Shown here: positions 18,545 to 35,687 of the stretch, one piece after another
Position numbering within the stretch: position 1 is the stretch's first letter
How the letters are laid out: each line of letters starts with the position of its first letter
Source: Candidatus Obscuribacterales bacterium
GTDB taxonomy: Bacteria > Cyanobacteriota > Vampirovibrionia > Obscuribacterales > Obscuribacteraceae
Assembly: GCA_949127735.1 (NCBI GenBank)
Contig: CASBPX010000104.1
Coordinates: forward strand, 1-38,487
Direction of reading: 5' to 3'
Length of the DNA: 38,487 nt
Program-made: the position numbers and the translations under genes
Notes under the pieces: generated by a model
The model's database searches: none
Told to the model about the DNA's origin: nothing
What the model saw: only the letters and a program-made list of their open reading frames with translations

Positions 18545-19528
18545 TTGAATCACCCCAATTCATCTCAATTATCAGCCGTGCAAGCCGTTTTCAGCAGACT
18601 CAATCAGGGTCTGCCTTTAGCTTTGGCTAGTTCTCTGGCTAGTTCGCTGGCTGTAATTACCTTTATAGGATGTTTGCCGGCTTTCGCTCAGTTGCCGCCC
18701 GTCAATATGGGCCGTTGGGTCAAGCAGCCTGGCGATAATCAATATTCGAGCGACACCCAACAATCACGGCACGGTGGCGGAGCCCCTGCCTATCAGGTGG
18801 TTCCTCAACGCACTGCAGTCATTCCCCAGCAATCGGCACCTATGTGGCGGCCAACTCCCAGAGCGAAGCGTTCAGATATATCGCTCGAACCGATCGTTTG
18901 TGATGAACCCATCGCTCCTGTGGGCTTCGCGCCATTGCCAGAGTCGTTAGATTTGCCAGGGCTGCGCGGCGGCTCAAGCGGATTTGCCGGTGGCAGTCGC
19001 GGCGGGGGCGGTATGGGTGGTGGCGGCGGTATGGGCGGCGCTAGTTTTTCTTCCAGCTATCAAGGTTCAGCTCCAGGTATGGCTGGTGGCGGAGGAGCCC
19101 CTGCGCGTGTTGAATCGCACCAGGGCTACAACACTCACGAGCCCGGTGCTTTTGTGAAAAAGAAAACTCCTTACGCTAACGCCAACAATAGTGGCACTGG
19201 TGGTGGTGGCGGAGATGTTTATTCGAGCGGCGATGGTGCCGGCGGCGAGCCCATGTCAGAAGATCAAAGAAGACTAAGGGGCCTTGGTCGCGAGCCTAGC
19301 TTGAAAAAAGGTGGTTCTGCTGCACCTGAGGCACCGCAGGCGGTGCAAGTCAATCAAGCCACTACTCAAGATCTGTCTCTACCTGATGACGATAATCCAA
19401 ACAATAACAAGCGCAAGTCGGGTAGCCAGTCTGGCAAATATTTCAAGAATCGATTGAAGCAGGCAACGAGGCAAATGCTCAGACCAATAAATTCAATGCC
19501 TCTACCTAGAATGCCTATTGGACGTTAA
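18545..19528 (+). CDS. Secreted Gly-rich protein, first gene of the T4SS-like cluster
   Basis: A 327-residue protein of unknown function. The start is TTG, chosen because a strong GGAGGG sits at ideal spacing and no ATG is available. A long signal peptide ends near Ala-Phe-Ala at residue 48. The mature part is low-complexity: Gly/Ser-rich stretches (about 138-185 and 218-232), few hydrophobic residues, and a basic amphipathic C-terminal segment of about 30 residues. It could be a surface or periplasmic structural component of the machine encoded downstream. No family was recognised. Confidence 0.75.
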   Translation: MNHPNSSQLSAVQAVFSRLNQGLPLALASSLASSLAVITFIGCLPAFAQLPPVNMGRWVKQPGDNQYSSDTQQSRHGGGAPAYQVVPQRTAVIPQQSAPMWRPTPRAKRSDISLEPIVCDEPIAPVGFAPLPESLDLPGLRGGSSGFAGGSRGGGGMGGGGGMGGASFSSSYQGSAPGMAGGGGAPARVESHQGYNTHEPGAFVKKKTPYANANNSGTGGGGGDVYSSGDGAGGEPMSEDQRRLRGLGREPSLKKGGSAAPEAPQAVQVNQATTQDLSLPDDDNPNNNKRKSGSQSGKYFKNRLKQATRQMLRPINSMPLPRMPIGR

Positions 19529-19589
19529 GTAAGAGAAATGGCGAAGCGCAATAAGCGCACTGGCGATGGAAGTAGTGAGGAATTTCAGG

Positions 19590-20246
19590 ATGTTCAAGAT
19601 GAGTAAGATATTTAGTACTAATAAGTTGCATTTGATTACACTAGCTGCGGTGGCCGCTTTTGTTTGTTCGGCTTCAAACGGTGCCAGTGCGCAAAATTCT
19701 TCTGTCACTATGAAGAAAGGTCAGTTGCAGCAAGCGGGTTGGTTTAAATCAGCTCCGCAAATTCAAATTGTTGACGATGGCCCTGTCGTCCACGATTTGC
19801 GCACAGCTCCAGCTCAAGATCAAAGTTACCAGCTGCCCATCGGGCCAGCCGGTACCAACGGTCGCATTCCTGAAGGCGGCATTCCTTTAGGCAATGGTGG
19901 CGGGCCAATGCAAATGCGCGTGGCACCAAACAATTTGCCACAAGCCGGTTTCGGCAGCAACGTTCCCGCTCGGGGCATGGGCCCTGCTCGTGCTCTGCCT
20001 GGCACTGAGATGGGTCAACTTGGTAAACAATATGCTGCAGAACAACGCCGCAATGCTCAATCGAGCGTCTCGGCCAGACCAATCGGTCGCCGTAGCGGTC
20101 AATCAGCTGTGGCCGCTCCTAATCGCATCGCTTCTCCAGCCGCCGCTTATGGTGGTGGTTATCAGAGCAGCGGCGGCGGATATGTTGCTCCTTCATCAAG
20201 TTCCAGTACATCATTACGAGGTGTGTTGCTCGGCAAAGGCAAATAA
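19590..20246 (+). CDS. Secreted Gly/Pro-rich protein, unknown function
   Basis: A 218-residue protein with a signal peptide ending near Ala-Ser-Ala at about residue 34. The ATG at 19590 has GAGGA 8 nt upstream; the ATG at 19599 is nearly as good. The mature region is rich in Gly, Pro, Gln and Ser, with a Gly/Ser/Tyr-rich segment near the C-terminus and a short basic end. It is similar in composition, but not clearly in sequence, to the preceding gene. It may be a secreted partner of the T4SS-like system. Confidence 0.72.
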   Translation: MFKMSKIFSTNKLHLITLAAVAAFVCSASNGASAQNSSVTMKKGQLQQAGWFKSAPQIQIVDDGPVVHDLRTAPAQDQSYQLPIGPAGTNGRIPEGGIPLGNGGGPMQMRVAPNNLPQAGFGSNVPARGMGPARALPGTEMGQLGKQYAAEQRRNAQSSVSARPIGRRSGQSAVAAPNRIASPAAAYGGGYQSSGGGYVAPSSSSSTSLRGVLLGKGK

Positions 20247-20281
20247 GTAGAACTGTCCAATTGCTTCAGGTAATTTAGTCC

Positions 20282-22363
20282 ATGCGTTTTCCGTTACCAT
20301 TATTAGCGCTAATCTCCATCCTGCTTACAGGGTGTAGCCCGCTTGGTGGCAGCCTCGGACGCGTGGACTCTAAATCTCATACACCCGGCAATGGTGTGCT
20401 CGGCCAGCTGCGTCCGAAAGTCGACCCGCGCTATATTGAGCGAGCCAGACAAGAAGAATATGCCAGAGCGCAAGAGCAGATGGCTCAAGCCCAGGCCCAG
20501 GGTGGCATGAACAATGGCAATGGTGGCATGTCTACCGATGGCATGGGTCGCGTTTTACCGCGGGTAATTACTGATCCTATATCTGGTCAAATGTCGAGCG
20601 CCGGTACGCTTTCGCAGAGCAGCAACGAGTCTGTCAACGCTGATCTAAATGCCGGTACTAATCCTGCTGTTCAATCTGCTCAAACCGCTCAAGCTAATTC
20701 AGGCACTGGCACAGGTCCAGAGGGCACGATTACGCCGGTTTCTGATCAGTCTCAAGGTCAAATCATGGTCGCTGATGCTTCCAAGGCAGCCAGCTATGGC
20801 GCTTACGGTTCAACGGTGCCGCCGCCTCCGCCAGGTTCGCTTTCAGGTGGGAGTTTGTCTCCGCCACCACCAGCGGTGACTCTTTCTACTCAGGCTAATG
20901 TCGGCAGTTACCAGGATCCTAATAACCCATACGGAAATCCCAATCCTTACGCTAATCCGTATGCTCAGCAGAATCCATATGCCAATCCTTATGCTAACCC
21001 TTACCTCAACCCTTACGCCATTCCTTATCAAGGACAGGGTTATCCGCCACAACCAATGATTCAGCAGCAACCAGAAAGACCATCTGGTCTTTTCGGTTCT
21101 GGACAGAGGGCACCAAAACGCGACGACGAAGAAGTGGAACGCAAAAAGGTTTCTACTTTCGTGCCGATTACACCAACCGGTATGGACTCGCGTTCACCAT
21201 ACAAGCAACGCGACGATCTTAAAGTGCTGTGGAAAGGCGCGCTTTCGACCGCCACTATTCAGCAAATAAGCGGCAAAGACCCTCGCCTCGCCGAAAGTTT
21301 GAATCGCATCGATGTGGGCCTGCCTTTAGATGGCTCTAAGGGAAATTTCAGCGTGGCTCAAAGACAAATAGACGCGATCTTCAAACCAGTAGCCATCGAC
21401 CGACGTGTCGCTCCTGCTGTGAAGCGCGCCCAGACTGACCTTGTGCAGTCTTATTATCGCTATCTTTATACTTATAACAAATTTGCTCTGGCCCAACAAA
21501 CCTATGCCGCTCGCAAACAAGAAGTAGAAGTGGCCACAACTGATTCGGAGAAACAAAGAGCAGCAGCCGATGTGGCTCAATCGCAAAACGAAGCTGAAAG
21601 TTCTCGCGATGATATGAAGACGGCACAAATGGAACTATCGGCGGTGGCCGGTGCTAATGCCGCTCGCTCTATTATTAGCAGAGTATCTGGTATCTCTCCA
21701 TCAATGGAAGCCTTGACTCAGGCCGAGCCACAAGCCGCACCTGCTGAAAGAACTTCGATGTTCGGTGGTCTTGGTGGCCTTGGTAATCTAGGCGGCATCG
21801 GTTCATTCTTTGGCATGGGTAATAAACCAAAAACCAATGAACAAGAGGCTCCAGTAGCAAGAGTGGCAATGGCAGCTCCGGCGAAGAAAACTGAGAAAGT
21901 TCAGAACGTTAAACCAGGCAAAGAGCCGAAGAAAGAAAAGGTTAAAGAGAAGAAAAAAGAAGTAGCGGACAAAGGTGATTTGCAACCGTCGAGCATAGCT
22001 GCAGCCTCAGCTCAAGCAGCGAGGGAAGTAGCCAGAGAACCAGAAAGAGCACCTGTAGCAGTAGATAGTAGCCCTGTTCAATTGCAACTCAAAGGTGTCA
22101 CTACCACTGCCCGCAAGTCTGTTTTGACCGTTGCAATCAAAAATAGCGGCCAGAGCGATTTTTCATTCAATCCTGAATCATTTGCCGTCTCTGAAAATAA
22201 TCACAAACTTTCTGAAGCAGCAATGCGCGCTGACTTCGAGACCACACTGGTGCAACCCAGTCAGGAAGTAAACGGAACCATCACTATTTTTGGCAGGCCC
22301 TGGAACGAACGCCTGACTATATCGCTTTCAGACGGCACACATAATTTGCAGATGCACCGATGA
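20282..22363 (+). CDS. Large lipoprotein with Asn-Pro-Tyr repeats, part of the T4SS-like cluster
   Basis: A 693-residue lipoprotein. The lipobox Leu-Leu-Thr-Gly-Cys18 follows a short signal peptide, so the protein should be membrane-anchored. Order of parts: low-complexity Gln/Ala/Gly region; a Pro-rich region with about ten Asn-Pro-Tyr units at about 213-250; a helical region (about 320-470) with a strong coiled coil; a basic linker rich in Lys-Glu; and a C-terminal beta domain (about 600-693) of an Ig-like type. Lipoproteins with beta domains are found in the outer-membrane core of T4SSs (VirB7/VirB9), but homology is not visible. Its stop overlaps the next start (ATGA). Confidence 0.8.
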   Translation: MRFPLPLLALISILLTGCSPLGGSLGRVDSKSHTPGNGVLGQLRPKVDPRYIERARQEEYARAQEQMAQAQAQGGMNNGNGGMSTDGMGRVLPRVITDPISGQMSSAGTLSQSSNESVNADLNAGTNPAVQSAQTAQANSGTGTGPEGTITPVSDQSQGQIMVADASKAASYGAYGSTVPPPPPGSLSGGSLSPPPPAVTLSTQANVGSYQDPNNPYGNPNPYANPYAQQNPYANPYANPYLNPYAIPYQGQGYPPQPMIQQQPERPSGLFGSGQRAPKRDDEEVERKKVSTFVPITPTGMDSRSPYKQRDDLKVLWKGALSTATIQQISGKDPRLAESLNRIDVGLPLDGSKGNFSVAQRQIDAIFKPVAIDRRVAPAVKRAQTDLVQSYYRYLYTYNKFALAQQTYAARKQEVEVATTDSEKQRAAADVAQSQNEAESSRDDMKTAQMELSAVAGANAARSIISRVSGISPSMEALTQAEPQAAPAERTSMFGGLGGLGNLGGIGSFFGMGNKPKTNEQEAPVARVAMAAPAKKTEKVQNVKPGKEPKKEKVKEKKKEVADKGDLQPSSIAAASAQAAREVAREPERAPVAVDSSPVQLQLKGVTTTARKSVLTVAIKNSGQSDFSFNPESFAVSENNHKLSEAAMRADFETTLVQPSQEVNGTITIFGRPWNERLTISLSDGTHNLQMHR

Positions 22364-24852
22364 CACATAAAAACCAGAATTTCCATTTCAATTTTACTAA
22401 TTTTTCTTTCGGGTCGAAGCACACTAAGCAACTGGGTAGAGAAGGGATGAATAAGCTAGCGAATAAAGCAATGAGCAAGGCAACTACGGTTGTCGCTTCC
22501 ATCGCTGGGTGCAGAGCGCTCCGGCTATTTACTTTACTAATGCTTGTCCTGGCTCTGTCGTTCACAGCCCAGGCTTTCGCTCAGGCAGTCAATCCAGGGG
22601 CCACACCAGCTCAAACGGTGCCAGACCCTAACGATTGCTCCGCCGAAGATATCTGCAAGACTTACGACAAGCGTTTTCCTTTCGAGGCAGAGCAACGCAG
22701 ATCTGACACCCACACCAGAAAAGCCCCTGGCACTAACAACGAAGAGTCAGATGAAGGCGAAAATAATGAAGTTGAGGCTTATAAATTTGTGCTTAAACGT
22801 TGCGATCTTTGCCAGTATGGCATTGCCTATATGCAAATTCCAATGACCGCTAACAATAGAACTTTGCAATCAAGAGACAACGAAGTATTCAAAAATACAT
22901 TGAAAACCAATGGTTTGCCACTGTCAGATACTCAGTTTCAGGTGATTCAGAGAGAGAACCATCAGCGTTTTCTTGAGCAATTGTATGATCCTGAAAAAAT
23001 GATGTGGGCTGCTCAAGCCACCGCACAAATGCAAGGTGCTGCAGCCGCCAACAGTACAGCAGGTACTGCCGAGCAATCTTTCGGCACCGCTCTAGATCGT
23101 ATCGTTAATGCTGATAGCGGCAATTGTTTGATTAACGTTGCTAATGAAGCATCAGGCGCTGGTTATCCTGGTCGAGTAGTAGAGAAAACTATTCCTGAGG
23201 CAGTGGGCATGGTGCAGACCATGTACAGGAGAGTCTTCATACCGATGGCCATTCTGTTCCTGCTGCCTGGTGCTGTTGCCAGTCAGGTAAAAGGTCAAAT
23301 CGGCCGAGGTTTTAACCTTGGTTATGCCGAAGGTGCTAATCCTTTTGAAGGAATTCTGCGTTCGATTGTAGCGATTTTCCTTATTCCCAGCACACAAGTG
23401 ATTGTCAGCTGGTCTATCGACACTGGAAACTCAATGGCGCTCAGTGTGCGCGATTGGGTCGACACTGGCATGATTCAAGATTGGGCCAGACAGCTTTCAT
23501 ACAACACTAGGGCGGAAAGAGACCAGAACGTACTCAATAAGGGCTCCCTTATTTCAGCCAGCACCGCTCAGGCCAGCACTGCTGGCTCAGGCAGCGGCGG
23601 TGGTGGTCTGGGCTCGCTGATCTCTAGCTTGGGCAGTGCCATCGGTGGTACCATCGGCGGCTGGATTTCTTCTCTGGGTGCCTTTGTCACCGCCTCTGGT
23701 GGTGATGGTTTAGGCGCGCAACAACCAGAACAAGCGGCTATTTCAGAGAGGGTAGGTAACCTTTCTCAAATTATGCAACTTAGTTTAAATACGATGATGA
23801 ATATGGCTTCCATTTTCCTCGTCATTCTAGGTGCCTATCAAATTGTCATGATTTGCTATTTGTTCTTACTCGGACCTCTGGCCGCAGCATTCTACGCCTG
23901 GCCGCAAGTAGGTAAAGGCAAACTCTTTAGAGGTGTATTCGGCGCCTGGGTTGAAGGCGTTATTCAAGTATCGCTCTGGCGCTTCTACTGGATGGTAGTG
24001 CTGGCTGTAATGACTCAGAGGCTGATTTACACCAATGGTGGTACCTCAGATTTGCAGTGGGAAGTTTGTATGTTCACCTGCTTCCTTGGCATTCTTCTCT
24101 GGGCTCCGGCCAGTCCATTTAGCTTCTCACCTAATGGTGGTCTCGCTTCAACTGAAAAAATTGCTTCTGCCAACAAAGACAGCGGTAAAGGTGGTGGCGG
24201 CGGTGGCAAAGGCCCTGGCGGCGAAGGTGAGAAAGGCGCAGCTGGCGCACCTGGCGCTGATGGTGACAAGCAAGATGATAAATCTGGCGCGGCTACAGAG
24301 CAGAAGGTGCAGCCTGAGGGGCAAGGTCAGCAGCAAGAAAATCAGACCCAGACTCCCGCTCAAAGAACCACTGAAGATGGTACCAACAAGAAAGAGCCCA
24401 CTGAAATTCAAGCCGCTCCACCTACAGAAGGTCAGAAGTCTACTGAGCAACAGGGCAACCCCACAGTCAACACTGCACCTCCTCCAAATGCGAACAGTGG
24501 GGAGCCATCCGGCGGTAAAGAGAAATCGCAGTCACAGGCACCAGTGGTTCAAGCATCAGCCGAGGTCAATGCCGGCAACATGCAACCTGGTCAAGCTCCA
24601 GTGCCGCTCTCAGGCTCAGGTGGTGCTAAGACATCTACTAATCCTGGCGTCGCTGGCAATCAAACCGCCCCTACTGGGGGCGAAGGCGCCAAAAAGGCTG
24701 GTGGAGGCGGCGGTAAAACCGGTGCTGGTAACACTACCGTCAACGTCCAGGGTGGTAATACTTCGGCCGGCGCCACAGCCAGCGCCAGTGCGGCACAGAA
24801 AGTGACCGGCGCTGCTGATCAAATTCCGAAAGAAAAGAAAAAAAATGAATAA
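22360..24852 (+). CDS. VirB6/TrbL-like polytopic membrane protein, copy 1, with collagen-like tail
   Basis: An 830-residue inner-membrane protein. A signal-like helix at 53-75 is followed by a Cys-containing periplasmic region and hydrophobic segments at about 292-309, 332-352, 482-514, 531-551 and 570-584. The central segment Gly-Pro-Leu-Ala-Ala-Ala, followed by an amphipathic loop and two further helices, is the pattern seen in VirB6/TrbL channel proteins. The last 240 residues are soluble, starting with a Gly-X-Y collagen-like stretch and continuing as Gln/Pro/Gly-rich sequence. Large parts of the first 580 residues match the next gene, so the two are paralogues. The start at 22360 relies on ATGA overlap; ATG at 22447 is an alternative. 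Confidence 0.78.
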   Translation: MTHKNQNFHFNFTNFSFGSKHTKQLGREGMNKLANKAMSKATTVVASIAGCRALRLFTLLMLVLALSFTAQAFAQAVNPGATPAQTVPDPNDCSAEDICKTYDKRFPFEAEQRRSDTHTRKAPGTNNEESDEGENNEVEAYKFVLKRCDLCQYGIAYMQIPMTANNRTLQSRDNEVFKNTLKTNGLPLSDTQFQVIQRENHQRFLEQLYDPEKMMWAAQATAQMQGAAAANSTAGTAEQSFGTALDRIVNADSGNCLINVANEASGAGYPGRVVEKTIPEAVGMVQTMYRRVFIPMAILFLLPGAVASQVKGQIGRGFNLGYAEGANPFEGILRSIVAIFLIPSTQVIVSWSIDTGNSMALSVRDWVDTGMIQDWARQLSYNTRAERDQNVLNKGSLISASTAQASTAGSGSGGGGLGSLISSLGSAIGGTIGGWISSLGAFVTASGGDGLGAQQPEQAAISERVGNLSQIMQLSLNTMMNMASIFLVILGAYQIVMICYLFLLGPLAAAFYAWPQVGKGKLFRGVFGAWVEGVIQVSLWRFYWMVVLAVMTQRLIYTNGGTSDLQWEVCMFTCFLGILLWAPASPFSFSPNGGLASTEKIASANKDSGKGGGGGGKGPGGEGEKGAAGAPGADGDKQDDKSGAATEQKVQPEGQGQQQENQTQTPAQRTTEDGTNKKEPTEIQAAPPTEGQKSTEQQGNPTVNTAPPPNANSGEPSGGKEKSQSQAPVVQASAEVNAGNMQPGQAPVPLSGSGGAKTSTNPGVAGNQTAPTGGEGAKKAGGGGGKTGAGNTTVNVQGGNTSAGATASASAAQKVTGAADQIPKEKKKNE
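24184..24270 (+). repeat. Collagen-like Gly-X-Y stretch
   Basis: About 29 codons at the start of the cytosolic or periplasmic tail of VirB6-like copy 1 encode a Gly-rich run followed by several Gly-X-Y triplets with Pro, Glu, Lys and Ala. Confidence 0.6.
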
Positions 24853-24865
24853 GGAGGTGAGAGAA

Positions 24866-27800
24866 ATGCGATTAATGCGACTGATGCAGATAAATAAGGC
24901 CAATGAAACAGTACATTCCACAATAGAGCAGCCGAAAATGAAATTCGAAATCAACATTTGTAGAAATAAGCGCAATCCTCTCACTGCTTTCAGCATCTTG
25001 TTGGCAATGGTGCTTGCTTTATTTGTCAACAATCCTAGCTTTGCTCAGGGCGCGGCCACAAACCCGAACCCTAATGATCACTCGTGCGAACAAATTATGG
25101 CTTCATTCTGCCTTAGACACAAAGCCGCCGAGCAGTATCACGATGCCGACGTCGTCAGAAACCAGGAATCACAAGGCCCTGGTACTGTCAGCCACGGCGG
25201 TGAGGAAAATAACCCAGTACAGGTGTGGCCCACGTATATTCCGTCTGCTGAATCAAAAGTGCCGACCCTGCGCGATACCGCCATCACCAAAAATATGTTT
25301 AAGACTTTCGGTTATCCACTTTCTGATACTCAGTATCAGGTAATCGAACGCTATAACCAGAACCGTTTCATGGAGCAACTCTACAACCCTGAAAAAGCTC
25401 ACTGGATGGCTCAAGCTACAGGTGGTCTAGCTGCCAACTCTGCCGCCAACAGTATGGCTGCCTTTGCTATCAACCAGGCACTCTCAGCCATTGATTTTTG
25501 CAAACAATTTCTTACCAATTTCACGGCTGAACCAGACAACGTCTGGCAAAGAATCCGCGACCAGCTGTTTGTGCCTATGGCGATTTTGCTTCTGCTTCCT
25601 GGAGCCGTCTTAGCTCAAGTAAAAGCAATTGTTGCTCAAGGCTCTCCAGTACTCGTCGGCGACGTTCACCCATTTGAGGGCATATTGCGCTCGATTGTGG
25701 CTATCTTCTTAATTCCTGGTACTTTCCTTGTTATTAACTACGGCATTGACGTAGCCAATTCAATTACGCTGACGATTGCCGATGAGTATAGAAATATTTT
25801 CGGCGCCGATATGTACGAAGATGCGAAATGCGCCATCGTCAGAGCGTTCCCTATGAACAAACCTGAGTGGAATAGAAACGCAATTGGTCCTAAAGAAACC
25901 CCTCGCTTTGTTGGAACTGGCCCGTGGGCCCGCCTTGAAGGCACCACCATTGCCACCGCCCGAATCGACCCATGCGCCGGCATAGAAGAAAGCCGCGTGC
26001 CTGACGAAGATGTGGTGCAAAGCAAAAACATCAACCGTTTGATGATGAATGGTTTAAATGATACGGCCACCATGTCGTGGAATCTTTCGTGCGCCTTCCA
26101 GATGGCCTTCCTTTATTACCTCTGGTGCATGGGGCCTATTGCAGCTGCATTGTGGGTATGGCCCGTGCAGCAAATGCGCGGCGCTCTGGCTAGCTGGATT
26201 GACGGTGTTATTACAGTTTGTTTCTGGAGTTTGTTCTGGAACACCACCATCTTATTGATGGCTTGTTTCAGAGGTGTAGGTGACTCAGGCACTATCATTA
26301 TGACTGCTTTGATTTTCCTTGCTGTCAACTCTGTTAAATCTGCCTTTGACTTTGCTGGCCTAGCTTCCGCTGCAGTGCAAGACGCTGCTAATAAGGCCCA
26401 GCAAGTCGCCAGTGCCGCCAAGGGTGGTGGCGCAGGTGGTGGCGGCTCCAGTAGTGGTGCTGGCGCGTCTAATCAGGGATCTGGTCAAAAAGGCGGTGCT
26501 GGACCCGGTGTTGGAGCTGGTAACACTGGTGGCGGCGGTGGCGGAGGTGGCGGCAGCGATTCCGGCAGATCTCAATCGATCGGCGGCACTGCGCCTAAAG
26601 CTGACGGTATCAGCACGGCTCAGACCACTAGCGACACTGGTGCACCAGCTACTAAATCTGGTGTCGGCAGCGATGGTCTGGGTGGCACCTTGCCAGCCTC
26701 CACGAGCTCTGGCAATGGTGATAAAGCCAAAGCCGAAGCTGGTCAAGGTGAAGGCAGTACTGATCAGGGTCTTCCTCCTCCTGCAAGCGGCGAAAAAACT
26801 GCCACCGCTGGTGGTGAAAGTGACGGGCCTCCTACCGGTGACGCTGGTGGAGCTGGTGCTGACGCGCTGACCGGAGCACTTGGGTCGGCCAGTGTTGACG
26901 CGTCCGGAAACATTGGTCTGCAAGTATCTGGCGATGCCGGCAACGGTACGTTAGGTATCACGACTTCAGGCGACGGTAACACCGGGCCTGGCGGAGTGCC
27001 GCTCACTGGTGATGGAGTTACGGCCGGTCCTGGGGATGGTCCTGTGTTCGGTGAAGGCGCTGCTCCTCTGCTCGGATATGGAATGGGCAATGCTGAAACT
27101 CCGATGCCTTTCGGTCTAACTCCTGAGACGTTTAAAGGCAATGCGTTCGAAGCGCTTGGTCTCGGACCTGACCTGCAGATTCCTGGAGTTGGCAATGAGC
27201 AAGGCCTGGGAGCGCTGGGAATAGGTAATGCTCAAGGACAGACTGACGGTAAAGGTGCCATTCCAGGAACCGATCTCTTCGGCAAACCAGATGCTACTGA
27301 ACTCGCTCCAGGCACTGAAAATGCCTTGAACAAGCTCGGAGCTGACGGCCAACCTCTTCTTGGGGCGGACGGCAAGCCAATGCTTGATCCGACTAGAGTA
27401 GGCGACGTGCCACCATTGACCGGAAATCTGGCTAATGATCCGGCCGCCTTGTCTGCGCAGAAGACCGCCGTAGACACGATGGCCATGTCGGGTGTCACTA
27501 CTGACCAATTGAAGACTGCCATGGATAATCCGAACGGTGCCGAATACAAGGCAATCGCTGATGCGACACACGTTGCACCGCCAATACTTGACGCAGCCCT
27601 GCACGGTAACACCAGTGCCGGTGTCATGACCGCCGTTGGTTTCGGTAGCACTGAAACTGCCAACTCATTTGCTGCACCTGGTGTAGGGAATGAAACCGCA
27701 GCCATGGCTACCAATGCCTTCCAGCAGGCCCAAAGTGTGGCCGGTGCTGATCCTGGCATGATCGACCGCGCAACTCTCGGTATGGACGCTAAGGCCGGTG

Positions 27801-30535
27801 CCCAATTGCTGAACTCGCCAGCTATGGATGCACAATTTGCATCAACTGTGAGCGGTTATCAGCAGGCTTATGGTGCCACAGGCAGCTACGCTCAAACTGA
27901 AGGCCAATACGCCTCGGCCGCTTCCTTTGGTAGCGCATCCGGTGCCTCTGGCTTCTCTGGAATCTCACCAAATATGGTTGGTGGAGATCTCAGCCCAGCC
28001 GGCTCAATTGCTTCTGCGAACAACTTCCAGTCGCCGTATACTCCTATCAGTGGTGATGCTGGTGGTGCCTCCGCTCAACGCGGTGCTGCTGACATCTTGT
28101 CGCTGACTAATACGACACCGCAAGAGATGCAACGAGCGCTGTCCAATCCGGGCGGTGCCGAGTATCAGGCCCTGACTGAACGCATCGGTTCATCACCCGC
28201 TCTAGTTGACGCTGCCTTGAAAGGTAGCGCCGCAGCTGGTGCGATTGTAGAAACTGGCTTCGGACAGACCGCTACTGCGCAAGCTAATGCCGACACATCG
28301 TTCACGGCTAACCAATCCGTGTCCATGTATCAGGCCGCTGCCAGCACCTATGGAGCTGATACTGTGCAGCAAGCCGCAGTCAATATGAATGCCGGTGCCG
28401 GTGCTCAAATTCTGCAGTCAGCGCAAATGGATCAACAATTTGCTTCTACTGTGCAGAGCTATCAGCAGTCGTATCAGACGAGCGGTAGCTATGCGTCCGC
28501 CGATGCCGGATATGTCAGTTCGTTTGGTTCAACACCAGCGGTTACTTCTTCTCTAGTTACCGGTGATGTTAGCGCTCCTGGAGCTGTAGCTTCGTCGATG
28601 GGTTATTCGGCACCGTACAGTGTGCCGGCCAGTGATGCTGGAGCGCTCTCTGCCCAACGCGGAGCCACCGACATCATGGCCTTGACTAATACGACACCGC
28701 AAGAAATGCAACGAGCGCTGTCTAATCCGGGTGGTGCAGAGTATCAGGCCCTGACTGAACGCATGGGTTCATCACCCGCTCTAGTTGATGCTGCCTTGAG
28801 AGGTGGTACCGCGGCTGGTGCGATTGTAGAAACAGGCTTCGGACAGACCGCTACTGCTCAAGCTAATGCTGGTACTTCTTATACAGCCCAACAATCTGTA
28901 TCTATGTATCAAGCGGCGGCCACTCAATACGGTGCTGATACCGTGCAGCAAGCGGCAGTCAACATGAATGCCAGTGCTGGTGCTCAGATATTGCAGTCAG
29001 CTCAGATGGATCAGCAATTCGCCTCTACTGTGCAGAGCTACCAACAGTCGTACCAAAGCGGCGGTAACTTCACACAGGCCGATACGAGTTATGTTTCCGC
29101 TGGGGGCCCAAGCCCTGCCATCACCAGCTCCGTAGTTGGTGGTGAAGCCAGCCCATCCGGCTCATATGCATCGGCAGCAGGCTACTCGGCACCATATACG
29201 GTGTCAAGTAGTGATCCGGGAGCAGTAAGCGCCCAAAATACGGGTCGCGACATCATGGCCATGACCAATACCAGCCCAACAGAGCTGCGTACTGCTCTGG
29301 CTCAACCTGAAAGTGCACAATATCAACAGCTAGCCGAACGCATGGGCGTTTCGCCGGCTCTGATAGACTCTGCCCTTCGTGGTAATGTCAGCTCTGCTGT
29401 AGTTGCCTCGGCCGGATTCGGTGCCACTGAAACTGCTCATCGATTTGAATCGCAATCGGTCACGGCCGCTCAATCGATCCAATACAATGCCAGTGCTCAG
29501 GCGGCTGGTGGAGGAGCTGACGCTGTCTATCAAGCAGCAGTCAATCTCAACCCAGAAGCCGGACAGAGGATACTCGGAGGTACTGGTCTGGATACTCAAT
29601 ACACAGCTACAGTCAATGCTTACCGTGCAGAGGCTGCCAGTGGTGGCGGGTATACGCAAGCACCGGTGGTGCCAAACTACATCACCAGCAGTGGTGGCTC
29701 AGCGCCGATGTCGCAAGACATGATTTCGGGAACGAATCAGGCGCAATATAGCTATGGCGCTCAGCCAGGTCAGACATATACCGCAGGGGGTAACGAAGTT
29801 GCACTACAGCAACAGCATCAGCAGTATGTAGCTGATTCTGGTTATGTCCAACAACAACAACAACAGCAGCAGCAATATGTCGCTGATCCTGGAGTTGTCC
29901 AACAGCCGCAACAACAACAGCAGCAGCAGCAATATGTCGCTGATCCTGGAGTTGTCCAACAGCCGCAACAACAGCAGCAGCAGCAATATGTCGACCCTGG
30001 AGTTGTCCAACAACTTCAGTCACCCGGTGTCGGCACCGGCCAATCAATCGTTGCCCACAACGATGTTGGGTATACCGGCTCTGCATCCACTGTAACCGGA
30101 ACCGGATGGACTGCTCCTCAAGTGCTGCCTGATGTCACCAGTGGTGGAACTCACGGGCTTGTCCAGCCTGAACAGCATCACCATGTTGAGCAGCAGCAAC
30201 AGCAAGTGAGACAAGACAGCCCTGGTTATATCGCTGATGGCGGTCCTAGAAAAACCTTCTCCAATATTCTTGGAGCTGGGGCGGCTGGACTGGCAGCGAA
30301 GAGCCAAGAGCAGAGCCGACCAAGTGGTGGTGCTCCAAATGCTGAACCGAAAGAATCGGCTCCTTCGCCACAACAGAAAGAAGGTGCTCCGCCAACGGAA
30401 GGTTCGAGCAATAAGGGCATCAACCTCACACCTGGCCAGAAACGCAAGGCCGTGACTCAACGTGAGTTAGACGAGCAGCAACGTCGCTTGCTGGAAGAAC
30501 AACGCAGGAACATGCCTGGCTTCAACGACGATTAG
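24866..30535 (+). CDS. Giant VirB6/TrbL-like membrane protein, copy 2, with repetitive 1390-residue tail
   Basis: A 1889-residue protein. I chose the ATG at 24866 because a perfect AAGGAGGTGA ribosome site (24851-24860) fits it, rather than the ATG at 24845. A signal peptide ends near residue 61. Hydrophobic segments at about 234-252, 272-294, 410-432, 444-468 and 475-494 align with those of the preceding paralogue. Shared marks include a Leu-Ser-Asp-Thr-Gln motif, Pro-Met-Ala-Ile-Leu, Phe-Glu-Gly-Ile-Leu-Arg-Ser-Ile and Gly-Pro-Ile-Ala-Ala-Ala. The tail has a Gly-rich linker, four units of about 193 residues, a Gln-rich block and a basic coiled-coil end. Rickettsiales also carry tail-extended VirB6 proteins. 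The tail's side of the membrane is unknown. Confidence 0.8.
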   Translation: MRLMRLMQINKANETVHSTIEQPKMKFEINICRNKRNPLTAFSILLAMVLALFVNNPSFAQGAATNPNPNDHSCEQIMASFCLRHKAAEQYHDADVVRNQESQGPGTVSHGGEENNPVQVWPTYIPSAESKVPTLRDTAITKNMFKTFGYPLSDTQYQVIERYNQNRFMEQLYNPEKAHWMAQATGGLAANSAANSMAAFAINQALSAIDFCKQFLTNFTAEPDNVWQRIRDQLFVPMAILLLLPGAVLAQVKAIVAQGSPVLVGDVHPFEGILRSIVAIFLIPGTFLVINYGIDVANSITLTIADEYRNIFGADMYEDAKCAIVRAFPMNKPEWNRNAIGPKETPRFVGTGPWARLEGTTIATARIDPCAGIEESRVPDEDVVQSKNINRLMMNGLNDTATMSWNLSCAFQMAFLYYLWCMGPIAAALWVWPVQQMRGALASWIDGVITVCFWSLFWNTTILLMACFRGVGDSGTIIMTALIFLAVNSVKSAFDFAGLASAAVQDAANKAQQVASAAKGGGAGGGGSSSGAGASNQGSGQKGGAGPGVGAGNTGGGGGGGGGSDSGRSQSIGGTAPKADGISTAQTTSDTGAPATKSGVGSDGLGGTLPASTSSGNGDKAKAEAGQGEGSTDQGLPPPASGEKTATAGGESDGPPTGDAGGAGADALTGALGSASVDASGNIGLQVSGDAGNGTLGITTSGDGNTGPGGVPLTGDGVTAGPGDGPVFGEGAAPLLGYGMGNAETPMPFGLTPETFKGNAFEALGLGPDLQIPGVGNEQGLGALGIGNAQGQTDGKGAIPGTDLFGKPDATELAPGTENALNKLGADGQPLLGADGKPMLDPTRVGDVPPLTGNLANDPAALSAQKTAVDTMAMSGVTTDQLKTAMDNPNGAEYKAIADATHVAPPILDAALHGNTSAGVMTAVGFGSTETANSFAAPGVGNETAAMATNAFQQAQSVAGADPGMIDRATLGMDAKAGAQLLNSPAMDAQFASTVSGYQQAYGATGSYAQTEGQYASAASFGSASGASGFSGISPNMVGGDLSPAGSIASANNFQSPYTPISGDAGGASAQRGAADILSLTNTTPQEMQRALSNPGGAEYQALTERIGSSPALVDAALKGSAAAGAIVETGFGQTATAQANADTSFTANQSVSMYQAAASTYGADTVQQAAVNMNAGAGAQILQSAQMDQQFASTVQSYQQSYQTSGSYASADAGYVSSFGSTPAVTSSLVTGDVSAPGAVASSMGYSAPYSVPASDAGALSAQRGATDIMALTNTTPQEMQRALSNPGGAEYQALTERMGSSPALVDAALRGGTAAGAIVETGFGQTATAQANAGTSYTAQQSVSMYQAAATQYGADTVQQAAVNMNASAGAQILQSAQMDQQFASTVQSYQQSYQSGGNFTQADTSYVSAGGPSPAITSSVVGGEASPSGSYASAAGYSAPYTVSSSDPGAVSAQNTGRDIMAMTNTSPTELRTALAQPESAQYQQLAERMGVSPALIDSALRGNVSSAVVASAGFGATETAHRFESQSVTAAQSIQYNASAQAAGGGADAVYQAAVNLNPEAGQRILGGTGLDTQYTATVNAYRAEAASGGGYTQAPVVPNYITSSGGSAPMSQDMISGTNQAQYSYGAQPGQTYTAGGNEVALQQQHQQYVADSGYVQQQQQQQQQYVADPGVVQQPQQQQQQQQYVADPGVVQQPQQQQQQQYVDPGVVQQLQSPGVGTGQSIVAHNDVGYTGSASTVTGTGWTAPQVLPDVTSGGTHGLVQPEQHHHVEQQQQQVRQDSPGYIADGGPRKTFSNILGAGAAGLAAKSQEQSRPSGGAPNAEPKESAPSPQQKEGAPPTEGSSNKGINLTPGQKRKAVTQRELDEQQRRLLEEQRRNMPGFNDD
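27452..29690 (+). repeat. Four long in-frame repeats in the giant VirB6-like tail
   Basis: Units begin at 27452, 28070, 28649 and 29228, with spacings of 618, 579 and 579 bp. Each opens with Ser-Ala-Gln and contains a conserved helical core (Ala-Glu-Tyr, then a Ser-Pro-Ala-Leu-Val-Asp-Ala-Ala-Leu motif, then Gln-Phe-Ala-Ser-Thr-Val). Units 2 and 3 are nearly identical, while units 1 and 4 have diverged. Confidence 0.92.
29822..30010 (+). repeat. Gln-rich tandem repeats (51-57 bp period)
   Basis: Copies begin at 29822, 29873, 29930 and 29984, the last one partial. Each encodes Gln-Tyr-Val-Ala-Asp, Pro/Ser-Gly, Val-Val-Gln and a run of CAA/CAG glutamine codons. Unit lengths differ by whole codons, as expected from replication slippage in frame. 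Confidence 0.92.
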
Positions 30536-30550
30536 TCCATTGATTTGCAC

Positions 30551-30687: not shown

Positions 30688-30714
30688 AGAACTGGCACCT
30701 TGGAGAAATTAAGC

Positions 30715-31344
30715 GTGGACCTGGCCGATGTCGGTGTTAAGTGTCCTAACTGCGGCGTGAAGTTCAACAGCAAGCAACTTCCACAAGTTGTCGATACTGG
30801 TTTGCGCAATAGCGAATTGCGCCAGCATATTGGTAACGTCAAACCTCAGTATGAGCAATATTCAGTGCTGACTTGCCCCAGTTGTGGCATTTCAGACTGG
30901 GCGACTTCATTCATTCCCACCACCGAGCTTTGCGTGCTCAATCAGGGAAATAGTCCACCACATTTGCAATATCGCAACGCCGCTATCGGCGCCGAGCGTA
31001 AGGGCGGCAACTATTTCGGTGTGGCCATGTTTTATCTCTACGCCGCCTGGTGCGCCGATGATGTCAATGCTGTGCCTCAGGCGCGAGAATACAGAAGGTT
31101 GGCCACAGACGCTTTCCGTAAATCTCTTGTTGACGTCTCCTGCCCCACCGAAAATCGCCCAGAAGTGGAATATTTAATTGGCGAGCTTTGCAGGCGTACT
31201 GGTGACTTTGCTCGTTGCAAAGAATACTATCAAGCGGTGATTGGCCGCTTACCGGCGCTCTATGCCGCAATGGCGCGAAAATTGATGCGCATGTCCGATA
31301 TGGGTTCTGCCGAAGACATTCAATTTGATGGCATGGGCAACTAA
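30715..31344 (+). CDS. DUF2225 zinc-ribbon protein
   Basis: A 209-residue soluble protein. Two CxxC pairs near residues 10-13 and 55-58 should bind zinc. Between them is the Arg-Asn-Ser-Glu-Leu-Arg segment typical of DUF2225. The C-terminal two thirds are helical, TPR-like repeats (about 95-200). The GTG at 30715 has GGAG 9 nt upstream; a TTG at 30700 lacks one. DUF2225 has no known function. Its position between VirB6-like and VirB3-like genes suggests a cytosolic helper of the machine, but it might be an unrelated passenger. Confidence 0.82.
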   Translation: MDLADVGVKCPNCGVKFNSKQLPQVVDTGLRNSELRQHIGNVKPQYEQYSVLTCPSCGISDWATSFIPTTELCVLNQGNSPPHLQYRNAAIGAERKGGNYFGVAMFYLYAAWCADDVNAVPQAREYRRLATDAFRKSLVDVSCPTENRPEVEYLIGELCRRTGDFARCKEYYQAVIGRLPALYAAMARKLMRMSDMGSAEDIQFDGMGN

Positions 31345-31375
31345 AGGCGAAGCTGATAATTAAGGACGGAATCAC

Positions 31376-31753
31376 GTGTCACGAGTTCACAAAGTCATTG
31401 TGCTGAATAAGCCTTTTAAGCTATGGGATTTCACAATTCGCCAGCTTCTGATGATGGTGATTGCCGTGGCCATCTCAGTCACTTTGCTTTCCAAGGTGCC
31501 CAGCAATCTAAAAATTGGCAATTTGCCCGCCAATATTCTCAGTGCCATTGTGTTTTTCTGCGCCTGTCTGCCTCTGGTTAAATTTACAGACTTAAAGCCC
31601 ATGAGCTGGTGGAAAAATGTTTTTCTCTATCGCCTGCATTTTGAACCCACGGTTTATGTGCCTAAACCGGAAGAACAAACGGCCATTTATCCTGACCCAA
31701 CCATCATTGAACCCACTAAAAAGTCAGACGAGTTCTATATAGGCTCCAATTAG
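31376..31753 (+). CDS. VirB3/PrgI-like small membrane protein
   Basis: A 125-residue protein with two hydrophobic helices (about 20-42 and 48-66) introduced by a Thr-Ile-Arg-Gln-Leu-Leu segment, then a basic/aromatic stretch and a soluble tail with Pro-Glu-Glu. This architecture is that of VirB3/TrbD/PrgI proteins, inner-membrane partners of VirB4 that are usually encoded directly before it, as here. It has a GTG start with AAGGA upstream. The assignment rests on architecture and gene order more than on strong motifs. Confidence 0.65.
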   Translation: MSRVHKVIVLNKPFKLWDFTIRQLLMMVIAVAISVTLLSKVPSNLKIGNLPANILSAIVFFCACLPLVKFTDLKPMSWWKNVFLYRLHFEPTVYVPKPEEQTAIYPDPTIIEPTKKSDEFYIGSN

Positions 31754-31772
31754 CCCGGTTTTGCGGCTAAAC

Positions 31773-31803
31773 TGGTCAGCACAGCTTCAGAACTATATAT
31801 AAT
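31773..31803 (+). promoter_or_regulatory. Possible promoter before the VirB4-like gene
   Basis: A perfect TATAAT at 31798-31803 sits in the 94-bp gap before the VirB4 start. The nearest -35 candidate, TGGTCA at 31773-31778, is 19 bp away, which is long. Confidence 0.3.
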
Positions 31804-31847
31804 GTTTCCTATAGCGTACGAGCCAAGAGCCCTGTGAGCGTTCATCA

Positions 31848-34658
31848 ATGGTAAGAAGTGCCGGTTCATCACCCATAAGAAGGACGTCGAGTTTGCGCGG
31901 CAGACCTCAGGCTAACGACGACATGGATGATGACGACGACGATCTTGATGATTTTCGTGGTCAGAGACGACCGCGCCCGACTACCGACTCTCAGATGCCC
32001 GAAGGCAAGCACATGCCGCTTACGCCGGGCCCTTCGCTAAACAATATCATTGCCGGATTTTACAACGGCTTACCAGGTCAGCTGCGCGACATGCTGCCTT
32101 TTGGCCAGGAATCACATAGTGGTGGCAGCGGCGGCGGTGGCTCAGACGATGACCCACCACCAGACAAACGCGGTGCCACCAGCTGGCAAGATGTCTGTTT
32201 CATCTATTCCATTCCTGGCGAAGACGAAGAAGACGGCCTGGTAGTTTTATCAGACGGCAGTTTTCGCAAATACATAGCCTGCAAAGGCATTAACGCTCTG
32301 CTTTTCGATGAAGCCGATCGCGAAACCATGGCCCGCACTTTTGCCAACTTTGCCAACTCCTGCGAATCAGATATTCAAATCATCATCAAGAGCCGCAACG
32401 TCTCAGTTGACGAATATCTTTCCCGCTATCAAATTTTGCTGAAAACCGATAATGATTATTTGAAATGGTACGCCGACTACACCGATAAATGGTTCCGCCG
32501 GGTTCAAGACGTTACTTTCGTGCCCCAGCGCGAATTTTATATCGTCATCAGCTTCCACCCGCCAGACTGCAAAAGCGGCAAAATGTGGAACGGCCGCCGC
32601 TCAATTCAAAAGCACGAAGAATATTTAGAATCGCTCAATCGCCTTGTTAAGACTGCCTTTGAACAATTGCGCGGCTCCAACTTGAGACCCAGTATTCTCA
32701 CTCGCAAAGAAGTGCGCAATCTGATTTATTCAGATTTGAATCCATCGCTTTATGAAAAAGACGGCGAGGCACCACCTTCGCGCACCAACGTTTCAGAAGC
32801 TTCAGTACTGGCTGGTTCGGCTTTAAAAGTGACAGACGATCACTTGTGGCTTGACGGCAAATATATCGGCACCCAGTATATGTTTGCTCCGCCCCACGAA
32901 ACCTGGATGGGCTGGCTTGTTGACCTGCTCACTCTATCAGTGGAGTACACTCTTTCGCTCTTCATTCACCAGTGCGATCAAGACAAAGTCAGACGCAACC
33001 TCAAGCTCAAGTATCGTATGGGCCACGTCGCCAGCACACAGCTAGCCACGCCCGACATTGAAGGGATGGAGTCGACAAGATCGGCCGCCACAGCCATTCA
33101 GGAGTTTTTGCGCAGCGCCAATAAAGCTTTTGATACTTCAATGTACATCCGCTCTTATGCCGATTCGCCTGAGCATCTGGCACAAAACATGGATGAAGTC
33201 AGGCGCATTTTCAAAAACCGCGGCGCCCAGATGGATAGAGGGCAAGTGCTGCAACTCGACCTCTGGCAGTCGACGCTTTCAGTGGGCGTAGATCGCATGG
33301 CGGTGGTGCACCGCGTTATGTCACCGATTGTGGGCACCATGTGGCCGTTTTTCACAGCTTCTTGCGGCACTCCTGATGGTGTACCATTTGGTTTTGCTCT
33401 CGCTTCAAGAGAGCCTGTGCTTTTAAATCCGTTCTTCCGGGGCCAGGGTAAAGACGCGAACAATATGTTCGTAGTAGGAACGACTGGTGCCGGTAAATCA
33501 TTCGCCGTATCGATGCTAATTCTGCGCCTTTTGCCACTGGGCACCCGCTTTGTTTTAATTGATAAAACCGTAGACAAATTTGGTGCCTATCGTTTCATTA
33601 CCGAGCTGCTCGGTCCAGAGCTTTGCGCCTACATCGACTTAGGGCCTAGTTCAGGCTACATTCTCAACCCCTTTGATCTCGGCCCCGAAGATAAAGAAGG
33701 CGAGCCTTCTGCCGACAAAATCAGCTCGCTTCTATCATTGCTCGACTTAATGCTGGCCCCTGAAGGTCGAGAAGAATTGAACGTTGAAGAAAAATCATTA
33801 CTCGATGGTTTGATTCGTGTAGCTTACATGGACGCTCATTTTAGAGGCGTCATTCCTACCATGTCAGATTTGGCTCGAGTGACAGCCCAGGCTGCTGCTG
33901 ATGAAGTAGATCCACTGCAACGTGATCGCTTACAGCAATTCGCTCGTGGTCTTTCTCTGTTCACCAGATCTGGTGCCTTTGGTGGATTAGTTGACGGTCA
34001 CACCAATATTGACACCGAAAAACTATTCATCGTATTTGATACCAGAGAGGTTAACGAACCTAGACTGGAAAGAATCGCCGTGTACATTTTGGCTGAGTTT
34101 ATTCGCCGTCGTGCAGCTGATTCAAAAGCAAGGGGAGTGCGCTTTGCCGCCATCATCGACGAAGCCGCTACGCTGATGCGATTTAAAGCCGGAGCGCGCC
34201 TGCTGGACGATTTGTCGAGAAGAGCCAGGCACTACGGTATGATGCTGGTAACAATTACTCAACAGCTGAAAGACTTCTTCAGACAGGCTGAGCAAGCTGA
34301 TTCTGTGGTGAAAAACTCGCACATGAAAATCATGTTGCGGCAAGATCCATCTGACTTGAAAATGCTCAAAGAAACCCTGCGTTTGACCGACGCTGAAACA
34401 GTAGCAATCGAGAATTTCTCTAGAGACGAAGAGAAACGTCGAGACAGCCAGTGCCTGCTAATTGTGGGCGCTGTGCACGGAACGATCAGGCTGGTACCAA
34501 GCCCCATGGACTACTGGATTTGTACTTCAGAGCCAATCAAAGACATTCCTCGCCGTCTAGATATGATCAAAGACGTGAAGGCCAAAAATCCTAAACTTTC
34601 TCATACTGATGCTTGCCGCCAGGCAGTCTATTACCTCGGCTTGCAGCACGAGGGATAG
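31848..34658 (+). CDS. virB4: VirB4/TraC-type secretion ATPase
   Basis: A 936-residue cytosolic ATPase that powers type IV secretion or pilus assembly. The Walker A motif Gly544-Thr-Thr-Gly-Ala-Gly-Lys-Ser551 and the Walker B Ile-Ile-Asp771-Glu772 are intact, followed by the Arg-Arg-Ala-Arg-His-Tyr-Gly and Thr-Gln-Gln segments typical of VirB4/TraC. The N-terminal domain (about 110-500) is the usual VirB4 assembly region. The first 110 residues are an extra disordered extension with a run of Asp at 24-35 and a Gly-rich linker. The ribosome site is weak. The next gene's ATG follows the stop immediately. This is the surest marker that the cluster is a T4SS relative. Confidence 0.93.
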   Translation: MVRSAGSSPIRRTSSLRGRPQANDDMDDDDDDLDDFRGQRRPRPTTDSQMPEGKHMPLTPGPSLNNIIAGFYNGLPGQLRDMLPFGQESHSGGSGGGGSDDDPPPDKRGATSWQDVCFIYSIPGEDEEDGLVVLSDGSFRKYIACKGINALLFDEADRETMARTFANFANSCESDIQIIIKSRNVSVDEYLSRYQILLKTDNDYLKWYADYTDKWFRRVQDVTFVPQREFYIVISFHPPDCKSGKMWNGRRSIQKHEEYLESLNRLVKTAFEQLRGSNLRPSILTRKEVRNLIYSDLNPSLYEKDGEAPPSRTNVSEASVLAGSALKVTDDHLWLDGKYIGTQYMFAPPHETWMGWLVDLLTLSVEYTLSLFIHQCDQDKVRRNLKLKYRMGHVASTQLATPDIEGMESTRSAATAIQEFLRSANKAFDTSMYIRSYADSPEHLAQNMDEVRRIFKNRGAQMDRGQVLQLDLWQSTLSVGVDRMAVVHRVMSPIVGTMWPFFTASCGTPDGVPFGFALASREPVLLNPFFRGQGKDANNMFVVGTTGAGKSFAVSMLILRLLPLGTRFVLIDKTVDKFGAYRFITELLGPELCAYIDLGPSSGYILNPFDLGPEDKEGEPSADKISSLLSLLDLMLAPEGREELNVEEKSLLDGLIRVAYMDAHFRGVIPTMSDLARVTAQAAADEVDPLQRDRLQQFARGLSLFTRSGAFGGLVDGHTNIDTEKLFIVFDTREVNEPRLERIAVYILAEFIRRRAADSKARGVRFAAIIDEAATLMRFKAGARLLDDLSRRARHYGMMLVTITQQLKDFFRQAEQADSVVKNSHMKIMLRQDPSDLKMLKETLRLTDAETVAIENFSRDEEKRRDSQCLLIVGAVHGTIRLVPSPMDYWICTSEPIKDIPRRLDMIKDVKAKNPKLSHTDACRQAVYYLGLQHEG

Positions 34659-35141
34659 ATGGACCAAATATTTCGCTTCAGCAAATGGTTTGTTTTATTT
34701 TGCGCACTACTGGTGGTCGCCAGATTGGCGCAGCAGTATGTGGCTGACCGAGCTTTTGAAGAACGTGCCAGTGCTATGGGTGAGAGGATTTTTGGCTGGC
34801 GCTGGGTCAATGCTGCTGGTAATGTAGATATACAGAGCAGCGCGCAAGTGACCAAAGCTAAAGTCATTCATCGTCGCGAGACTGATGGACAGGTGCGGGT
34901 GGAAGGCACCCAGCTCGTGATGTCACCAGATATAGGGTCAGCCAGCGATATTAAAAATTTAAATTCAGTGGATAATTCAGGCGTTAAATCACAAGGAGAA
35001 ACTCAACCAACAGATGTTAATTCGGCGGGAGCCGGCAGTGCAGGGGCTTCAAGCAAACCCTTATCGGGCAAATTTGCTGCTGTTCTCACTCTCTACAAAG
35101 ACAAGAATGAGTGGAAACTGGGAAAAGTGGAGGCTGAGTAA
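34659..35141 (+). CDS. Single-pass periplasmic protein in the T4SS-like cluster
   Basis: A 160-residue protein with one N-terminal membrane helix (about 8-27) and a periplasmic part. That part has two beta-rich segments (50-90 and 132-160) separated by a Ser/Gly/Asn-rich linker. It starts at the base after the VirB4 stop, so it is clearly co-translated with it. The layout resembles small VirB8/VirB5-class components, but no motif supports a firm name. Confidence 0.7.
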   Translation: MDQIFRFSKWFVLFCALLVVARLAQQYVADRAFEERASAMGERIFGWRWVNAAGNVDIQSSAQVTKAKVIHRRETDGQVRVEGTQLVMSPDIGSASDIKNLNSVDNSGVKSQGETQPTDVNSAGAGSAGASSKPLSGKFAAVLTLYKDKNEWKLGKVEAE

Positions 35142-35144
35142 TAT

Positions 35145-35687
35145 ATGTATTGGAGAGTTCAAAAAGTCGGACCGGAACAGCTGGTAAAGCTTTACGGCGT
35201 GCACTTACTTTTGATTTTAAGTCTGCTTATTAACGGTTTTCAGTGGATCACTCGACCGGCCAAATCAATGCCCGAGGGAGTGAAAACCGACATCGAAGCT
35301 TTTTCGCGCAAACTCACTAATCACCTGCTTGATACCAGCTATATTTCCTGCGAAGCCAATATGACCGCCTTGCGATCTGAGCTTGACCCGCCTCTGGCAG
35401 CCAATCTAACACAACAGGGCATATTGCCCAAGACGGCTCAAGACATGCGCGCTATGGTATTAGATATGCAAGAACGCAAACAGATTTGTGCCGTGCGCAT
35501 CGATGACATCAAAGTCAGCGAACCCACAGCCAAAGGTCTAATTCCGGCCCGAGTGACCGGCATTTGCGCTATTCACTCAGCTGCTGAAACCGCAGAGAGA
35601 CGTTTTACTTTTCAATATTTAATTGGCCAAAGAGGCGATACTGGACAACTCATTCTTTCTCAATATGAAGATCTGTCACCGCAATAG
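35145..35687 (+). CDS. VirB8/TraE-like periplasmic protein (candidate)
   Basis: A 180-residue protein with a short cytosolic N-terminus, one membrane helix (about 17-34) and a periplasmic domain. The domain order (helices around 45-105, then beta strands ending in an aromatic Phe-Thr-Phe-Gln-Tyr strand and a final Leu-Ser-Gln-Tyr-Glu strand) matches VirB8/TraE, which have an NTF2-like periplasmic fold. Two cysteines (about 66 and 106) could form a disulfide with Cys143 nearby. It follows the preceding gene by 3 nt and closes the cluster. The assignment is by architecture only. Confidence 0.6.
   Translation: MYWRVQKVGPEQLVKLYGVHLLLILSLLINGFQWITRPAKSMPEGVKTDIEAFSRKLTNHLLDTSYISCEANMTALRSELDPPLAANLTQQGILPKTAQDMRAMVLDMQERKQICAVRIDDIKVSEPTAKGLIPARVTGICAIHSAAETAERRFTFQYLIGQRGDTGQLILSQYEDLSPQ

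Follow-up and report, generated by a model that had tools for sequence, protein, structure and literature searches.

The window analysed here is a 38,487-nucleotide (nt) stretch of DNA, contig G000:C104 of a Candidatus Obscuribacterales genome (G000; 4.7 Mb, 246 contigs, 78% complete), and its plus-strand cluster at 18545-35687, referred to below as locus A, encodes components of a type IV secretion system (T4SS). That the cluster is T4SS-related is practically certain, because its VirB4 ATPase falls on the VirB4 side of the VirB4/VirD4 split and the product of its last gene, SP2, has a VirB8 fold; that it is a fixed host device is equally secure, because its synteny beside rib and ubiX-rimM is order-wide. 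Machines of this type, which export DNA or protein, are usually borne on conjugative plasmids. The one described here is a lineage-specific, domesticated T4SS with two chromosomal copies (locus A and a sister locus B) in nearly every sampled genome. The whole reading, a chromosomally fixed T4SS apparatus of Obscuribacterales with a proposed export job, is somewhat favoured, and translocation to other cells, judged from sequence, is likely when taken by itself.

The core of locus A and its fixation in the order

Among NCBIfam models, VirB4 matches conju_CD1110 (8e-61), TraC-F (2e-55) and VirB4_CagE (2e-36), all under the curated cut-offs; with 206 bits against a cut-off of 325 for conju_CD1110 and 188 against 567 for TraC-F, it qualifies neither as the equivalog of mating-pair formation (MPF) class MPF_FA nor as that of TraC-F. 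Pfam matches are to P-loop_TraG (4e-19) and TraC_F_IV (4e-8), the single PDB sequence match is 4ag5, a VirB4-like protein, and identity to plasmid proteins is approximately 23%. PF03135 (CagE_TrbE_VirB) has no match in the source genome, so the system does not fall into MPF_T. The intact Walker motifs described in the first-pass annotation are indeed present: Walker A reads GTTGAGKS, and the 11 locus-A homologues that were examined have a Walker-B-like AAIIDE or AAVIDE. In a quick maximum-likelihood tree, the VirB4s of loci A and B lie on the VirB4 side of the VirB4/VirD4 split with 99% support in the SH-like approximate likelihood ratio test (SH-aLRT), and the feared grouping with unrelated AAA ATPases is not seen; long branches in this tree bar finer placement, including any sister relation of the A and B VirB4s. 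Locus A genes evolve under purifying selection, with differences between the VirB4 genes of the window and of locus L042 amounting to 9, 3 and 48% at codon positions 1, 2 and 3.

The AlphaFold model of SP2 (predicted local distance difference test score, pLDDT, 81) comprises a transmembrane helix, several helices and a four-stranded sheet. The top eight PDB matches found with Foldseek are CagV, TraM, DotI and R388 inner-membrane-complex chains, with Brucella VirB8 and Bartonella TrwG next (target TM-scores 0.66-0.72); ARC6/PARC6 domains and other NTF2-like proteins appear from rank 9. The fold alone is not unique to VirB8, and it is the gene context that makes VirB8 the natural reading of the modelled protein. 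The VirB8/TraE-like character that had been ascribed to this protein from its layout is thus borne out by an NTF2-like VirB8 fold. A profile of the SP2 family, when compared with PDB sequences, yielded only spurious polyubiquitin matches arising from repeated weak matches, and the candidacy of the neighbouring SP1 as a second VirB8 was dropped after a non-significant hhalign comparison.

Locus A VirB4 is found in 38 of the 39 order genomes, the source genome included, and is missing only in G029 (71% complete); full-length matches are 74-99% identical within the order. The 21 class outgroups gave at most two weak matches, and in a sample of 292 genomes of the phylum there was none beyond the source genome (E 1e-10). 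The 41 public loci, nearly all labelled Obscuribacterales, Melainabacteria or Cyanobacteria, have one gene order wherever contigs suffice, mostly with the rib genes downstream, either at once or past a few inserted genes. The host had been taken for a non-photosynthetic relative of cyanobacteria, in keeping with the named relatives (Candidatus Obscuribacter/Obscuribacterales), and the cluster for a fixed chromosomal device rather than a conjugative element. The latter also holds, since the locus occupies the same site across the order and lacks the sporadic distribution and variable site of a conjugative element. G028 and G033 have extra A-type VirB4 copies, and some genomes contain degenerate paralogues. 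The source genome itself has a third VirB4-like protein of 686 aa with no Walker A found, encoded among TPR genes (L032, 7797-9857 of G000:C65), and a 428-aa ORF (open reading frame) in which a VirB4 N-terminal domain comes after a PrgI-like N-terminus and the ATPase domain is missing (L033, 8843-10129 of G000:C98); matches of 400-445 aa resembling the latter occur in G001-G004 and G018.

All ten plus-strand ORFs of the cluster were recovered at the positions first annotated, tightly packed with gaps or overlaps of -4, -8, 0, 3, 31, 35, 37, 53, 94 and 164 nt, and the secreted Gly-rich proteins, the large lipoprotein and the two single-pass proteins are all present. Housekeeping genes flank the cluster as described (nuo genes with rnc, ubiX-rimM, rib), together with a GT20 gene. 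The first-pass annotation passed over the TrbI-like gene on the minus strand, the DUF2225 gene and all loci beyond the window. The features are as follows:

18545-19528, +, SecA1, secreted Gly-rich protein, 327 aa, TTG start, signal peptide by eye
19566-20246, +, SecA2, secreted Gly/Pro-rich protein, 226 aa
20282-22363, +, large lipoprotein, 693 aa, lipobox LLTGC, candidate outer-membrane component
22360-24852, +, polytopic membrane protein B6a, 830 aa, paralogue of B6b, putative VirB6-like layout
24845-30535, +, polytopic membrane protein B6b, 1896 aa, long low-complexity C-terminal part, putative VirB6-like layout
30700-31344, +, DUF2225 Zn-ribbon/TPR protein, 214 aa, PF09986 5.7e-13
31376-31753, +, PrgI/VirB3-like protein, 125 aa, two transmembrane segments, PF12666 E 1.3e-3 (below cut-off)
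31848-34658, +, VirB4 ATPase, 936 aa
34659-35141, +, SP1, single-pass protein, 160 aa, without Pfam match
35145-35687, +, SP2, VirB8-like protein by AlphaFold and Foldseek, 180 aa
12469-13491, -, secreted TrbI/VirB10-C-like domain protein, 340 aa, divergent flank, candidate outer-membrane partner
13436-14266, -, two small membrane proteins of a divergent operon, 159 aa (13787-14266) and 97 aa (13436-13729)
14285-18119, -, two TPR proteins, divergent from the cluster

The PrgI/VirB3-like protein agrees with its first assignment in size, in its two transmembrane segments and in its position directly before VirB4, but its profile match is weak, and PF12666 matches, likewise sub-threshold, were found in five of 24 orthologues. 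The two VirB6-like proteins are indeed polytopic paralogues, but their VirB6 identity, a matter of topology, found no confirmation: a Pfam scan of members of the family gave no consistent match, and the AlphaFold model of the B6b core (pLDDT 75) has no significant PDB match, with TrwI/VirB6 at ranks 3, 36 and 37 (E 0.6-2.4). As had been claimed, the locus includes no relaxase, no VirB1 hydrolase and no recognised pilin; VirB11 was not found among the window proteins scanned, the genome beyond the window not having been searched.

Upstream, SecA1 homologues occur in L034, L036, L038, L040 and L066, and the SecA2 slot is filled likewise in these five loci as well as in L061 and L082. The lipoprotein slot is also conserved in relatives, and the C-terminus of the protein has a sub-threshold match to DUF4352 (E 0.005). 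On the divergent side, the TPR pair adjoins locus A also in L034, L036/L037, L038/L039 and L040, and the 159-aa membrane protein is kept in 14 genomes. The TrbI-like protein recurs in each of the 14 relatives read over this stretch; PF03743, the sole Pfam match of its family, is found in 15/15 members (best 3.3e-5), and a comparison of the family profile with PDB sequences gave zero matches. Of 60 genomes, 56 have PF03743 matches, outgroups that lack VirB4 among them, and proteins of T4SS-less genomes reach up to 43 bits with the family profile. Because the same domain is this widespread in VirB4-less genomes, it is not diagnostic, and the VirB10 identity of the protein was dropped in favour of that of a possible partner. 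Secreted TrbI/VirB10-C-like proteins are common class-wide, VirB4-less genomes included (e.g., L149 and L151-L154).

Sister locus B and the relaxase cassettes

A VirB4 of locus B, approximately 33% identical to that of locus A over the matched part, is found in 36 of the 39 order genomes; it is fragmented in G037 and was not seen in G024, G031 and G033. The locus encodes, in order, secreted proteins, a pilin-like 142-aa protein, a large polytopic protein, DUF2225, a PrgI-like protein, VirB4, a VirB8-like protein and VirD4. The CD1115-like VirD4 matches PF02534 above the Pfam cut-off (4e-18) and is the sole PF02534 match in the source genome. The earlier statement that no VirD4 lies nearby therefore holds for the window, but the genome does have one. 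Profile comparisons support the kinship of the PrgI-like proteins of A and B (hhalign E 1.8e-5, probability 78) and of SP2 with the VirB8-like protein of locus B (hhalign E 1.6e-4); the latter protein has a weak TraE match (E 0.018), and its profile gave zero matches among PDB sequences. In both loci, the DUF2225 gene precedes the PrgI gene. A and B share the block DUF2225-PrgI-VirB4, preceded by a polytopic protein and followed by a single-pass protein, which suggests that a whole module was duplicated. The next gene downstream of VirD4 in locus B appears by eye to encode a serpin-like protease inhibitor (L031, 3047-4189 of G000:C140).

The locus B contig of the source genome ends within the polytopic gene, so that the pilin gene is seen in relatives only. 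Its product has a signal peptide, two hydrophobic segments and no Pfam match; it is 78-100% conserved in most genomes and frequently encoded in two or three tandem copies, and membrane proteins with a VIT domain carry a fused version of its domain. The pilin-like protein (L091, L083, L100) has, after its signal peptide, a near-invariant motif, GLVGAPVDPRYGQSNEVGQLADYGYD. The same motif recurs in the C-terminal anchor region of membrane proteins of approximately 950-1020 aa (a VIT domain was found in both that were scanned) and, according to Pfam coordinates in L141 and L142, between the BRD and A2M domains of bacterial alpha-2-macroglobulins of approximately 2000 aa, about the expected bait region. 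Other loci with the motif are L138-L140, L143, L145, L135 and L146; L137, grouped with L141 and L142; and L144. Of 60 genomes, 36 have motif-profile matches, and every one of these belongs to the order. A single endogenous protease or sorting enzyme may recognise the motif as its site, in which case the macroglobulin copy would serve as bait.

PF03432 relaxases were found in 19 of the 27 order genomes searched and in none of 13 outgroups. Most of them adjoin a second, stronger class of VirD4 (PF02534 approximately 1e-40 to 1e-56). Among 11 such cassettes (L123-L133), all have the relaxase and VirD4, ten an RHH/NikA-like protein and nine a membrane protein of approximately 220 aa; no VirB4 or other recognised T4SS gene lies within the stretches read. 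Behind the cassette of L125 lies a Fic-domain gene that has a weak VbhA-like match. Among the order genomes searched with a VirB4 family model, A and B alone were found, save in G007, with two T-type systems, and G019, with one extra VirB4; the two conventional T-type VirB4/VirB10/VirD4/relaxase sets of G007 are located at G007:C1:50000-77000 (L134, L147) and further along the same contig. As the cassettes bring a relaxase and VirD4 without a VirB4, their channel is most readily sought in the resident machine, whose use by these elements is a serious possibility, held at slightly less than even confidence. Elements with their own relaxase and coupling protein that recruit the pore of a helper are a known type (PMC5704250).

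Proposed mechanism and rival explanations

Obscuribacterales are diderm. In the mechanism proposed here, VirB4, VirB3/PrgI, VirB8 and the polytopic proteins would form an inner-membrane translocon powered by VirB4, and a path across the outer membrane would be provided by the lipoprotein and the secreted proteins, perhaps joined by the divergent TrbI-like protein. Sister locus B, either as a separate machine or as another module of this one, would contribute substrate selection through VirD4 and a surface fibre built from the pilin-like protein. The most likely job would be contact-dependent export to other cells. Host-encoded substrates, whether proteins, DNA or both, would enter through the VirD4 of locus B, and mobilisable elements with a relaxase and VirD4 of their own and no VirB4 would dock that VirD4 on the resident channel. 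The fullest form of this proposal, that a channel for conjugation was turned into a lasting organelle of the host, inherited vertically and duplicated into two modules, and that the lineage's mobile elements gave up channels of their own and ride the host's machine by means of relaxase and coupling protein, is put forward tentatively.

Several points weigh against the proposal. The VirB4s of A and B reach known classes solely below curated cut-offs, the VirB6 assignment failed the test by AlphaFold and Foldseek, and an outer-membrane core of VirB7, VirB9 and VirB10 was not convincingly identified, the lipoprotein being without homology and the TrbI-like flank not diagnostic. A and B could form one machine or two. 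The source genome, at its 78% completeness, is without a relaxase of PF03432, the family searched; genome size and common ancestry act as confounders of relaxase co-occurrence, and a transient conjugative plasmid could serve the cassettes instead of the A/B channel.

Bacterial-killing T4SSs exist in Xanthomonadales. An injection machine for protein effectors, used in predation, antagonism or symbiosis and unrelated to the mobile-element cassettes, is possible though doubtful: a relaxase-free, clade-wide chromosomal T4SS with VirD4 in a sister locus would suit it, and the T4SS of Patescibacteria is the closest biological precedent (PMC12102498), but Obscuribacterales genomes, at 2-9 Mb in the sample, are not reduced as in obligate epibionts, and no effector bearing a T4SS signal came to light, although none was looked for. 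The extreme conservation of the locus B pilin-like protein, its tandem copies and its fusion to VIT-domain proteins would fit a surface fibre or adhesion device, in which the T4SS core assembles this protein and presents others at the surface, nothing being translocated between cells; since a fibre alone could do without a coupling protein such as VirD4, and a pilin was not recognised in locus A, this is improbable. DNA uptake, or release of DNA into the medium, appears very improbable. Chromosomal T4SSs with such functions are known (Helicobacter ComB and the gonococcal genetic island), and locus A itself is without VirD4, but the source genome has no PF03432 relaxase. That the cluster is no T4SS at all, and an unrelated AAA ATPase stands beside small membrane proteins of chance resemblance, is largely refuted and hardly credible: such a view could draw on the weak PrgI and VirB6 assignments and the lack of PF03135, but against it stand VirB4 profile matches down to 8e-61, the placement of VirB4 in the tree, the VirB8 fold and sister locus B, which repeats the gene order and has a true VirD4.

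Relation to known systems and significance

In gene content and setting, the nearest published parallel to the Obscuribacterales machine is the T4SS of Patescibacteria, which is likewise clade-wide and chromosomal, usually lacks a relaxase, comprises VirB4, VirB3/PrgI, VirB6 and VirB2-like pilins, has VirD4 far from virB4 in most genomes, and is encoded by genes reported to be essential for epibiotic growth (PMC12102498). In contrast, Obscuribacterales have large genomes, signal peptides and a lipoprotein, two paralogous loci, a DUF2225 partner and a VirB8-fold protein. The system resembles MPF_FA/FATA of Gram-positives in its best VirB4 profile (conju_CD1110), in PrgI directly before VirB4 and in the CD1115-like VirD4 of the sister locus, but it departs from this class in its VirB4 score, the lack of VirB1 hydrolase and relaxase in the locus, and the low identity to plasmid proteins. 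Likeness to F-type systems consists of TraC-F as the second-best VirB4 profile and the weak alignment of the locus B VirB8-like protein to TraE, whereas the TraF/H/U/W/N set was not recognised in the locus and VirB4 remains under the curated cut-off.

A precedent had also been seen in Vampirovibrio chlorellavorus, which belongs to the same class of bacteria. Its T4SS is reported as T-type and partly located on conjugative plasmids, and was proposed to serve predation (PMC4451040), whereas the Obscuribacterales machine is not T-type (no PF03135), chromosomal and order-wide; the precedent, being of a different T4SS class, has no direct bearing on function here. The relaxase/VirD4 cassettes share the design of integrative mobilisable elements with their own coupling protein (PMC5704250), but differ in that Obscuribacterales genomes usually have no conjugative helper besides the chromosomal A/B machine. 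No description of this machine was found in the literature searched, a limited search with most subscription journals outside it.

The Obscuribacterales machine would represent a second clade-wide, relaxase-free T4SS, here in large-genome relatives of cyanobacteria, and as such would indicate that T4SS domestication recurs. If it is true that mobile elements use the A/B machine, ownership of the channel would be separate from ownership of the transferred DNA, and gene exchange in this uncultured lineage would become testable.

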